Of a stretch of 64,000 bases of DNA, positions 1,856 to 8,873 are shown piece after piece. Numbering within the stretch: position 1 is the first letter of the stretch; each line of letters begins with the position of its first letter. Both the position numbers and the translations under genes were made by a program. Source of the stretch: Actinomycetota bacterium (GTDB taxonomy: Bacteria > Actinomycetota > Actinomycetes > Nanopelagicales > Nanopelagicaceae); the NCBI GenBank assembly GCA_014377015.1, contig JACMQL010000047.1:1-64000 (forward strand), given 5' to 3'. A model generated the notes under the pieces. It was not told the DNA's origin and ran no database searches. It was given only the letters and a program-made list of their open reading frames with translations.

Positions 1856-3562
1856 GTGAACAACCACGCGGGTCCTTCTGGTCAGTTGCGCATTGCGATG
1901 GCGCAGCTAAATCCGTGCGTCGGTGATCTTTCCCGAAATGCCCTTCTGATTAAGGAGTGGGCGACCAAGGCACACGAACTCGGAGCGCATGTCGTTGTAT
2001 TCCCCGAAATGGTTGTCACTGGCTATCCAGTCGAGGACCTCGCTTTGCGAGCTAGTTTTCGTAAAGCCAGTCGAGATTCTCTATCTGAAATTGTGCAGTG
2101 GGCGGGGCGGGCCGGATTGGGAAAGATGGTTCTTGTTGTGGGTTATCTGGATGAATCCGAAGGCGGTCCGCAAAACGCTCTTGCGGTAATTCAGGGCGGT
2201 GAGATGCGGGCGAAATATGTGAAAGTCCACTTACCAAATTACGGAGTTTTCGACGAGTTTCGTAACTTCGTCCCCGGTGGCAAGTCGCTCATTTTTAGAT
2301 TGCATGGAATTGATATTGCCGTTGCAATTTGCGAAGACATCTGGCAGGACGATGGGATAGTCGCAGAATTAATTTCCCGAAAGCCGGGCATCTTGCTGGT
2401 TCCCAATGGCAGCCCCTTTGAACGAAATAAGGATGATGTACGACTTGCTTTGGTAGAGCGTCGCGCGCGCGAACTCGGCGCCCCGGTGGTGTACGTGAAT
2501 ATGACTGGTGGTCAAGATGATTTGGTATTCGACGGCGACTCGATTGTGGTTGACCAGTTGGGTCAAACTCTTTATCGTGCGCCTCGCTTTGATGATCACC
2601 TGGCGTTGGTGGATCTGCAATTACGTTGCCAGAGCTCCATTCCCGATGTGATTCTGGATGAAACTCCATGTCCTGCCTATGCACCTCTAGCGCCCCACCG
2701 CGAAACGCGCCTCGATGACCTGGCCGAGGTTTGGCAAGCCCTCGTCGTCGGACTTCGAGATTATGCGCACAAGAACTCATTCTCCACTGCTGCGATTGCC
2801 CTGTCAGGAGGAATCGACTCCGCGCTTGTCGCCACACTTGCAGTAGACGCGCTGGGGGCATCCAATGTTTATTGCTACGGACTTCCGAGCAAATATTCCT
2901 CAACCCACTCGCTCAAAGATGCACAAGCACTTGCTGACAACACCGGCCTTAATTTCTCTGTAATTAGCATCGCGCCGATGGTGGAGTCCTTTGTAGATGA
3001 GTTGCGTCTTTCTGGAATTGCTGAAGAAAATGTTCAAGCCAGAGTTCGCGGCACCACCATGATGGGAATCTCAAATCAGTTTGGGCATTTAGTTCTCGCA
3101 ACCGGCAACAAGAGTGAGTTGGCCGTCGGCTATTCCACTCTGTATGGCGATGCAGTTGGTGGGTACGCCCCAATTAAGGATCTATACAAAGTTGACGTGT
3201 GGGCTCTGGCTCGGTGGCGCAATTCCATTGCCGAGTTGTCCCGGCAAATATCTCCCATCCCGATCAATTCCATCGAGAAGGAGCCAAGTGCTGAACTGCG
3301 TCCTGGTCAAAAAGATTCTGATTCTTTGCCTGAGTATTCGATTCTTGATGAGATCTTGGTGCGGTACATCGAAGGGGACGAGGGCGCGGCTTCCTTGATT
3401 GCCTCAGGCTTGGACGCAGCACTTGTTCGCCGTGTTATTTCTATGGTGGATCGGGCTGAATACAAGAGACGTCAATATCCGCCCGGGACCAAGGTCTCAA
3501 GGCGCGCATTTGGCAAAGATCGACGCCTGCCGATGACATCCCACTGGATCGAACGTATCTAG
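1856..3562 (+). CDS. nadE: Glutamine-dependent NAD+ synthetase
   Basis: 568 aa; N-terminal nitrilase-like glutaminase (VVFPEMVVTGYPVEDL) plus synthetase domain (ALSGGIDSALVATLAVDALG). Confidence 0.96.
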   Translation: MNNHAGPSGQLRIAMAQLNPCVGDLSRNALLIKEWATKAHELGAHVVVFPEMVVTGYPVEDLALRASFRKASRDSLSEIVQWAGRAGLGKMVLVVGYLDESEGGPQNALAVIQGGEMRAKYVKVHLPNYGVFDEFRNFVPGGKSLIFRLHGIDIAVAICEDIWQDDGIVAELISRKPGILLVPNGSPFERNKDDVRLALVERRARELGAPVVYVNMTGGQDDLVFDGDSIVVDQLGQTLYRAPRFDDHLALVDLQLRCQSSIPDVILDETPCPAYAPLAPHRETRLDDLAEVWQALVVGLRDYAHKNSFSTAAIALSGGIDSALVATLAVDALGASNVYCYGLPSKYSSTHSLKDAQALADNTGLNFSVISIAPMVESFVDELRLSGIAEENVQARVRGTTMMGISNQFGHLVLATGNKSELAVGYSTLYGDAVGGYAPIKDLYKVDVWALARWRNSIAELSRQISPIPINSIEKEPSAELRPGQKDSDSLPEYSILDEILVRYIEGDEGAASLIASGLDAALVRRVISMVDRAEYKRRQYPPGTKVSRRAFGKDRRLPMTSHWIERI

Positions 3563-3610
3563 TTTGGGATAATTGCGAGTAGTTCGCAGGTAGCCAAAAA
3601 TCGCGGAGGG

Positions 3611-3616
3611 TAATAT
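3611..3616 (+). promoter_or_regulatory. -10 box TAATAT, candidate leaderless promoter of the cysK leader peptide
   Basis: TAATAT-GTCCGT-GTG(3623): 6-nt spacing as at other leaderless genes in the window. Confidence 0.55.
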
Positions 3617-3622
3617 GTCCGT

Positions 3623-3700
3623 GTGCTGGAGATCAAATATTGGTTGTTCACTCGACGTCGCGTGATTGATTTTGGCCGCGCTTGCACGAGCGCCTGCTGA
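3623..3700 (+). CDS. Short leader peptide (uORF), 25 aa, upstream of cysK-cysE
   Basis: GTG CTG GAG ATC AAA TAT TGG TTG TTC ACT CGA CGT CGC GTG ATT GAT TTT GGC CGC GCT TGC ACG AGC GCC TGC TGA = (M)LEIKYWLFTRRRVIDFGRACTSAC*. Resembles the actinobacterial 'putative leader peptide' pattern RRxVDLxRVxSAxC, ends in Cys, precedes cysteine biosynthesis genes, correctly spaced -10. Confidence 0.7.
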   Translation: MLEIKYWLFTRRRVIDFGRACTSAC

Positions 3701-3836
3701 CTTTCACACCGCATTTTCGAGCGTGGAACCCGGCGATTTATTACGTGCGAGAGTGCAACATATTTCGACACTCAACTAAGAAGTCCTATTTGAATTACAT
3801 CAACTTCAATCGAGAGAAATGAACGGCGGAGGAATT

Positions 3837-4769
3837 ATGAAGGTTTACAACAACATCACAGAGGTAGTCGGTAATACTCCTTTGGTACGAATCAACCGAA
3901 TCACTGATGGCGCGGCAGGAAATGTTTTTGCAAAGTTGGAGTTTTATAACCCAACCGCAAGCGTAAAGGACCGCATTGGCATTGCGATGGTCGATGCAGC
4001 CGAACTTTCTGGTGAACTAAAGCCGGGCGGCACAATCGTCGAGGCTACGTCGGGAAATACCGGTATTGCATTGGCCATGGTTGGAGCGGCGCGTGGCTAC
4101 AAAGTAATTTTGACAATGCCAGATTCAATGTCAAAGGAACGACGCACACTCTTGCGCGCATTCGGTGCCGAACTTGTGCTGACTCCGGCAGCGGAAGGCA
4201 TGCGCGGAGCTATTGCGAGGGCTGAAGAGTTGGGCGCCACGGATGGCGCAGTACTCGTTCGTCAATTTGAGAACGATGCGAACCCGGAGATTCACCGCAA
4301 GACGACGGCCGAAGAAATCTGGCGGGACACAGACGGCAACGTTGACGCGATTGTTGCGGGCGTCGGAACCGGCGGAACGATCACTGGAATTGGACAAGTC
4401 CTCAAAGCGCGTAATCCGAATCTAAAGGTATTCGCGGTAGAGCCGGCGGCATCTCCACTTCTGAACGGTGGAGCGCCCAGCGGTCACCCGATTCAGGGCA
4501 TTGGCGCTAACTTCATTCCTAATATTTTAGATCGCGACATCTACGACGAAGTCTTCGATGCGAGCGCTGAGGATGCAATTGCTTACGCGCGTCGAGCCGG
4601 CACCGAAGAAGGCATTCTGGCGGGCATCTCCTCCGGAGCTGCGTTGTGGGCAGCATCTCAAATCGCGAAGCGACCTGAATTCGCGGGGAAGAATATCGTC
4701 GTGATAATTCCTTCCTTTGGCGAGCGCTACTTGTCAACGGTTTTGTATAAGGACCTTGCGGAGCTATAA
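3837..4769 (+). CDS. cysK: Cysteine synthase A (O-acetylserine sulfhydrylase)
   Basis: [22 protein letters not shown]...[14 protein letters not shown]...[21 protein letters not shown] before ATG 3837 (ORF-track start 3819 is upstream). Confidence 0.96.
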
Positions 4770-5276
4770 ATGAGCCTGCATATTCGCGAAGACATCAGCA
4801 ACGCGTTGGCGCGCGATCCTGCTGCAAGGAGCCGACTCGAAATATTTCTTGCCTACCCCGGCTTGCACGCAATTTGGGGACACCGAATGGCGCATTGGCT
4901 CTGGACGCATAATTTCAAACTCGTTGCTCGTGTCTGGTCCAATTGGACCCGCACGGCGACGGGCATTGAAATTCACCCCGGGGCCGTTATCGGTCGCCGC
5001 TTTTTCATTGACCACGGTATGGGCGTAGTGATCGGTGAGACTTCAGTCATCGGCGATGACGTGATGATGTATCACGATGTGACGTTGGGTGCGCGTTCGT
5101 ACAAGAAGGGCAAGCGACACCCCACGATCGGCAACAACGTCATCATCGGGGCAGGTGCCCGCGTCATTGGGGACGTTACTATCGGCGCCGGCGCAGTCTT
5201 AGGCGCAAATACCCTGGTCACCAAAGACGTAGCCGAACGGGCGCAACTCGACTCATCTGAGTTTTTTGTAATCTAG
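4770..5276 (+). CDS. cysE: Serine O-acetyltransferase
   Basis: 168 aa; left-handed beta-helix hexapeptide repeats ([33 protein letters not shown]); directly after cysK. Confidence 0.96.
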
Positions 5277-7994: not shown

Positions 7995-8873
7995 ATGAAC
8001 ACTATTTTAGATGCCATTGGAAATACGCCGCTCATTCAGATTGAGGGCATCTGGGTGAAGATGGAATTTCTTAACCCATCTGGTTCGATAAAAGCTCGTA
8101 TCGCGAAGTACATCATTGAAAGGGCAGAGCGTGACGGCATGCTGAGTTTAGGCGACACGATCGTGGAAGCATCCAGCGGCAACACGGGTAACGCAATGAG
8201 CATGGTTGCGGCAGTCAAAGGTTACAAAATGATTGTTGTCATGCCAGATGGAATGAGCCCAGAAAGGACTGCGATCTCTCGCGCATTCGGAGCAGAAGTA
8301 CGCACCATGGGAGATTTTCACGTGACTGATGCACTTGCAGAAGCCCGCCGCATGGGCCAGTTGCCGGGATATTTTGCACCTCAGCAATTCGACAATGAAT
8401 GGAATGTGAACGAAAATCGAGAATGGTTGGGTGCGGAAATTCTCCAACAAATGCCAGTTCTGCCTGATTTGGTTATTGGTGGTATCGGCACTGGCGGAAC
8501 AATTATCGGGGTGGGGCAAGCATTTAAAGCTGCTAATCCCGACTGCAAAGTAATTGCCTTGGAACCTGCAGAATCGTGCACCATTCTTTGCGGTGAAATT
8601 GCGAAGCATTTGATTGAAGGAATTGCGGACGGATTTGTGCCGGGAATAATCGAGCGTCATCGCGATGTCATAGACGGATTCGTTGATATACATTCCGAAG
8701 AATCAATTGTTGAAATGCGAAGATTGGCAAGTGAACATGGAATCTTTGTAGGTCCGTCATCTGGTGCACACTTACTTGCCGCAAAGCGATTGAAGGAGCA
8801 GTACAAAGTCGAAAACGTTGTGACATTTTTCTGCGACGAAGGTGAGAAATACATCACGGATTACTGGCTCTAA
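7995..8873 (+). CDS. PLP-dependent cysteine synthase family protein (second paralog)
   Basis: 292 aa; ILDAIGNTPLIQIEGIWVKMEFLNPSGSIKARIAKYIIE...EASSGNTGNAMSMVAAVKG. Confidence 0.85.
   Translation: MNTILDAIGNTPLIQIEGIWVKMEFLNPSGSIKARIAKYIIERAERDGMLSLGDTIVEASSGNTGNAMSMVAAVKGYKMIVVMPDGMSPERTAISRAFGAEVRTMGDFHVTDALAEARRMGQLPGYFAPQQFDNEWNVNENREWLGAEILQQMPVLPDLVIGGIGTGGTIIGVGQAFKAANPDCKVIALEPAESCTILCGEIAKHLIEGIADGFVPGIIERHRDVIDGFVDIHSEESIVEMRRLASEHGIFVGPSSGAHLLAAKRLKEQYKVENVVTFFCDEGEKYITDYWL

Follow-up and report, generated by a model that had tools for sequence, protein, structure and literature searches.

A probable leaderless cysteine leader peptide upstream of cysK-cysE in a streamlined freshwater actinobacterium

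We analyzed a 64,000-nt stretch of DNA (the window) from a streamlined freshwater actinobacterium, whose genome assembly comprises 1.72 Mb in 50 contigs, and found that its cysK-cysE operon is probably preceded by a leaderless, cis-acting cysteine leader peptide. This leader is most likely a ribosome-based cysteine gauge; its response to cysteine, and the direction of that response, would be those of the mycobacterial leaders, from which both are taken by analogy. The finding would bring both streamlined freshwater actinobacteria and the cysK-cysE operon into the range of cysteine leader control, with related leaders carried by several separate sulfur operons of one 1.7-Mb genome. It also turns the loose idea of a "Cys-rich leader" into a sharp, testable rule, in which a conserved core stands at a set distance from one Cys codon.

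An earlier sequence-only reading had placed a 25-codon ORF at GTG 3623, 6 nt past a TAATAT box, with two Cys codons near its end and 136 nt between it and cysK-cysE. The sequence and the ORF list bear this out: the ORF runs from GTG (3623-3625) to TGA (3698-3700), the Cys codons lie at 3683-3685 and 3695-3697, the spacer from leader stop to cysK (3701-3836) is indeed 136 nt long, and both downstream genes are confirmed by curated models (Table 1). A second cysK-like gene, of PALP fold and 42% identical to the first, lies at 7995-8873; a profile search found no leader of the present family upstream of it.

Table 1. Features of the leader and the cysK-cysE operon in the window
Feature	Position	Strand	Remark
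TAATAT, -10-like box	3611..3616	+	6 nt before leader start codon
Leader-peptide ORF, leaderless type, VLEIKYWLFTRRRVIDFGRACTSAC, then stop	3623..3700	+	Peptide conserved (pN/pS 0.15); E=8e-17 by a profile that excludes the window sequence
Conserved core F-T-R-R-R-V-I-D-F, codons 9-17	3647..3673	+	Invariant residues across cysK-linked peptides
First Cys codon, C21, Asp+5	3683..3685	+	Not conserved: Cys at Asp+5 in 10/39 cysK leaders
Last Cys codon, C25, Asp+9, proposed sensing codon	3695..3697	+	Asp+9 Cys near-universal
Predicted hairpin, 5' arm opening at last Cys codon	3695..3735	+	Arm pairing and fold; weak alone
GGAGG Shine-Dalgarno site of cysK	3828..3832	+	Such a site in 39/39 cysK leaders
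cysK, cysteine synthase A	3837..4769	+	Start ATG 3837; TIGR01139, 451 bits vs cut-off 351
cysE, serine O-acetyltransferase, adjoining cysK	4770..5276	+	TIGR01172, 225 bits vs cut-off 211

The DNA upstream of cysK was inspected in relatives without demanding a Cys; the named close relatives are metagenome-assembled actinobacteria, one of them labelled Candidatus Nanopelagicaceae. The pattern FT[RK]xR[VI]xDF was found upstream of cysK at 50 loci, 41 of them distinct by sequence. Almost every close relative has a leader before cysK, and the pattern is absent from some loci whose cysK is 72-76% identical and from Microbacteriaceae-type loci. In almost every case the leader begins with an ATG or GTG placed exactly 8 codons ahead of FT. 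Across 27 cysK-linked peptides, residues W7, F9, T10, R11, R13, D16, and F17 are invariant even though their codons differ, and every one of the 96 distinct family peptides has the Asp of the core. Within the core codons, the third position varies in 11 of 11, the first in 5, and the second in 2; the ratio pN/pS is 0.15 in the cysK leaders and 0.23 in the leaders found before DUF4395 genes (see below), and exceeds 1.6 in shifted frames. A profile built from relatives only, with the window sequence left out, recovered the leader ORF at E=8e-17, the next frame in the window scoring E=0.28, and a profile restricted to Streptomyces- and mycobacteria-type rows still ranked the ORF first in the window, weakly (E 0.037). 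Pfam returned nothing matching the leader peptide. Among what would refute it, the sequence-only reading had named in advance an unconserved core or random synonymous and nonsynonymous change; that test was run, and its outcome strongly favours the peptide. The pattern of substitution among relatives indicates that the leader ORF is real and that purifying selection on its peptide is strong.

Initiation at this ORF appears to be leaderless, as had been proposed. A TANNNT box lies 6-7 nt upstream of the start in 37 of the 39 distinct cysK leaders, against 2.3 expected from shuffled upstream DNA, and in this set the start position was fixed by the peptide before the boxes were scored. The corresponding counts for the DUF4395 copies (42/43) and the rhodanese copies (5/9) are biased upward, the start having been chosen partly by the box. 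A Shine-Dalgarno-like site occurs before the leader in 1/39 of these loci, compared with 39/39 before cysK. A scan of 3500-3900 for a sigma-70 type promoter returned none. Judging from the conserved box and its spacing, a leaderless start at or beside GTG 3623 is well supported. An alternative is that the ORF is a chance one, short ORFs being common, or that translation is led by a Shine-Dalgarno site from ATG 3615, which opens another, 16-codon frame (MSVCWRSNIGCSLDVA) and has GGAGGG (3605-3610) 4 nt upstream. We regard this alternative as scarcely credible: conservation and coding signal belong to the GTG 3623 frame, which refutes the chance-ORF reading, and since only a single cysK leader has a Shine-Dalgarno-like site before it, the GGAGGG is probably incidental.

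Two more copies of the leader lie in the same genome outside the cysK locus; the sequence-only reading had recognized the kind of the cysK leader and missed both of these. One copy, MFRNEPVLFTKRRVIDFGRLAGSLCRM, stands before a DUF4395 gene and after a thioredoxin-fold gene, and the other, VINTAIEFTKRRTVDYCRIMTTSCNG, before the genes for a rhodanese-type and a Sulf_transp protein. A fourth genomic match (C10, E 0.65) contains one internal stop and was discarded. In the family sample, 92 of 121 genomes had at least one match, and the 62 non-cysK copies examined (60 fetched plus the genome's own two) precede DUF4395 in 46 cases and a rhodanese gene in 10.

Sequence comparison indicates that the family is akin to the known actinobacterial Cys leaders (Ms5788A, Ms4527A, and NF042934), among which it forms a new lineage. 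Leaderless Cys uORFs before cysA2/Msmeg_5788 and nirA/Msmeg_4527 were described by Shell et al. 2015, with ribosome occupancy shown at the M. smegmatis locus of the cysA2/Msmeg_5788 uORF (PMC4633059). Canestrari et al. 2020 is cited for cysteine-responsive control by mycobacterial leaders (PMC9031893) and for translation attenuation as its mode (PMC13236596), and Seliverstov et al. 2005 predicted that mycobacterial cys operons are preceded by Cys leaders lacking terminators (PMC1262725). With the Ms5788A family (NF042933, the mycobacterial uORF before cysA2/Msmeg_5788) the present family has in common a short ORF with leaderless-type architecture before sulfur genes, a T-K-R-R-x-V-D-L/F core, and a Cys at Asp+9. 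NF042933 matches the genome's DUF4395 copy (27 aa) at E 1.4e-5 and 24.6 bits, below the curated cut-off of 45; its best E is 4.9e-5 in the cysK set and 4.9e-7 in a DUF4395 leader, and in a mycobacteria-like genome the leader stands directly before DUF4395. However, a poly-Cys run characterizes the mycobacterial form, whereas the family here has one or a few Cys, and the window copy precedes cysK-cysE and itself gets no NF042933 match. The sole NCBIfam match of the window peptide, over residues 12-25, is to the Ms4527A family (NF042936, before nirA/Msmeg_4527); this match is weak, at E 0.064 and 12.9 bits where the cut-off is 45, and the downstream gene is a different one. NF042934 (cis_reg_atten, "putative leader peptide", Streptomyces type RRHVDLxRxSSAxC) shares the core layout and the Asp+9 Cys, often single, but has RRHVDL where the window family has FTRRRVIDF; its best E in the cysK set is 0.0013, and the DUF4395 copy reaches 18.9 vs 27 bits. 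Leaders of the NF042934 type gave 7-11 matches per genome in three genomes of one family. Some members match these families significantly; where bit scores are given, the window peptide and the other members fall below the curated cut-offs of NF042933, NF042936, and NF042934.

Like the actinobacterial leaderless Cys leaders, the window ORF is short, lies directly upstream of a cysteine/sulfur gene, and has an R-R-x-V/I-D-L/F core with a Cys at a fixed offset; the run of consecutive Cys codons that marks the mycobacterial poly-Cys leaders is not found in it, its two Cys being separated. Conservation, coding signal, and gene linkage together support its earlier description as a translated leader of the actinobacterial Cys type, tied to sulfur genes.

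Across the family, a Cys stands at Asp+9 in 93 of 96 distinct peptides as scored, a count that rises to about 94 once a single mis-anchored row is put right, with L010 (Cys at +10) and L193 as the exceptions. By class, the counts are 38/39 for cysK, 44/45 (45/45 corrected) for DUF4395, and 9/9 for rhodanese leaders, of which the cysK set is the unbiased part, a Cys not having been required in its selection. A Cys at Asp+9 is likewise present in 27 of 27 Streptomyces-type, Mycobacterium-type, and other actinobacterial leaders found by a profile that itself favours such a layout, and the stretch from Asp to Cys aligns gap-free over 16 peptides of several families. One Streptomyces-type leader, L145 (VSRTPLLTSRRHIDLLRVCSAI, then stop), has the stop codon, not a Cys, at Asp+9. 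After the core, a single Cys is present in 40 of 45 distinct DUF4395 leaders, and most cysK leaders have 2-4 Cys codons. The sequence-only reading had overlooked both the fixed spacing and the single-Cys sisters; with one Cys codon in many sister leaders, being Cys-rich is not the defining feature.

Peptide-level selection together with the fixed Asp-to-Cys spacing suggests stalling assisted by the nascent chain instead of stalling on a succession of hungry codons. When the Cys codon occupies the A site, the Asp would lie nine residues from the incoming residue and the RR pair about 12-13, depths in the tunnel where known arrest peptides act. TnaC-type nascent-chain arrest leaders have conserved residues ~9-16 positions before the stall, a short ORF, and control of a downstream operon; the window leader resembles them in this layout, and arrest at it is putative. 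A competing explanation, plain hungry-codon attenuation in which nothing but the Cys codons counts and the remaining residues serve as a passive spacer, is the established idea for mycobacterial poly-Cys leaders and would suit the several post-core Cys codons of most cysK leaders. We consider it possible but somewhat doubtful, because the core is more conserved than the Cys-codon count, the single post-core Cys of the DUF4395 leaders is nearly always at Asp+9, and a passive spacer needs neither an invariant Asp nor a fixed spacing. Strong purifying selection on the peptide, and the presence of several related peptides within one genome, could also point to a released peptide that works in trans as a small protein, whose target might be a regulator or a sulfur enzyme. 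This is improbable given that the N-terminus before the Asp ranges from 7 to 17 residues, that the ORF mostly ends 0-2 codons past the Cys, and that within a single genome the copies stand before different sulfur operons.

Taken more widely, the role suggested for the nascent chain would make these leaders phylum-wide cysteine sensors in which the chain stalls the ribosome, the core [FL]T[KR]RRx[VI]D[FYL] serving as an exit-tunnel ruler nine residues before a single Cys codon and the mycobacterial poly-Cys run being a later amplification; we rate this slightly short of an even chance. Should stalling require the core, many leaders of actinobacteria would be arrest peptides tuned to cysteine. 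The literature searched yielded no statement of the Asp-to-Cys rule or of a nascent-chain role, which does not prove that none exists, and the mechanistic hypothesis is sharper than what that literature offers.

In the proposed mechanism, transcription would start at or next to GTG 3623, and the ribosome would load on the 5' end of the mRNA. The core FTRRRVIDFGR would sit in the exit tunnel as the Cys25 codon enters the A site; when charged Cys-tRNA is scarce, the ribosome would stall at Cys25, aided by contacts between core and tunnel, and would keep the RNA of the Cys-codon hairpin open, allowing cysK-cysE to be expressed. When cysteine is sufficient, the ribosome would finish and depart, the hairpin would form, and expression would drop.

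The hairpin that opens at the Cys codon covaries strongly in the DUF4395 leaders and weakly at cysK. In the DUF4395 leaders, the fold of the 52-nt segment that starts at the Cys codon has a mean z of -2.75, own-arm pairing is -13.25 compared with -8.07 when permuted (0 of 5000 permutations as low), 34 of 39 own-arm pairings fall below the 10th percentile, and the hairpin ends a median of 18 nt upstream of the downstream ATG. The signal is weaker in the cysK leaders (own-arm pairing -7.18 vs -6.01, p 0.0002; mean z -0.65), and the arm-pairing test gave no hairpin signal in the rhodanese leaders. The window hairpin at 3695-3735 has an own-arm duplex of -12.6 kcal/mol, compared with -5.2 kcal/mol with unrelated arms, and the fold of 3692-3745 (z=-1.6) is weak alone. 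In this model, a ribosome sitting on the last Cys codon would block the hairpin. The sequence-only reading had noted that the Cys region TTGCAC (3682-3687) could pair with GTGCAA (3753-3758). Both sequences are present, but they form an isolated 6-bp match outside the predicted folds, and the spacers of relatives differ; this pairing is not supported, and the different hairpin beginning at the last Cys codon had been missed. The whole-leader fold was rejected as a structured element, being no stabler than shuffles (z +1.1), and Rfam returned only a tRNA in the window and nothing in ten related loci. Among the cysK leaders of the window's genus, L025, L092, L095, L096, and others carry an A-T-rich hairpin over the leader stop, with a CTGCNNCACAAAAG-like loop and a U-rich 3' side.

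Modelled exposure of the cysK Shine-Dalgarno site was 0.33 when free and 0.31 with a ribosome stalled on the Cys codon, with no general gain; at DUF4395 a stalled ribosome produced a small rise. The model does not bear out systematic unmasking of the cysK site by a stalled ribosome, and with no general gain there, the output step of a stall could be either translation initiation or premature termination. Rho-dependent or hairpin-driven transcription termination, in place of control of cysK translation, would agree with the unchanged exposure, and Rho has been proposed for mycobacterial cys leaders (PMC1262725). We give this explanation real weight but less than an even chance: no intrinsic terminator was found within 3500-3900, and the position of the DUF4395 hairpin end relative to the downstream ATG fits interference with initiation. 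In one genome, a DUF4395 leader (L197) has TCTCC directly after its Cys codon, which pairs with the DUF4395 Shine-Dalgarno GGAGA, and direct sequestration is predicted there.

A short Cys leader of an unrelated type, with the ending C-x-C-x-[RG]-R-G-x, was observed in Chloroflexota, both 150-255 nt before cysK (L044, L047, L050, L052, L056, L061, L064, L067, and L075) and in L285-L295. Its GGCGGGG codons are complementary to CCRCCGCC right past the stop and to CCCCGC further on; the loci checked had no Rfam match. A pattern search found it in 10 of 100 genomes of one class, with 11 matches in total against 1 for the reversed control. Nearly all of these leaders precede cysK-type, sulfurtransferase, sulfite-reductase-type, or sulfhydrylase genes, an assignment made by eye in which L293 is ambiguous.
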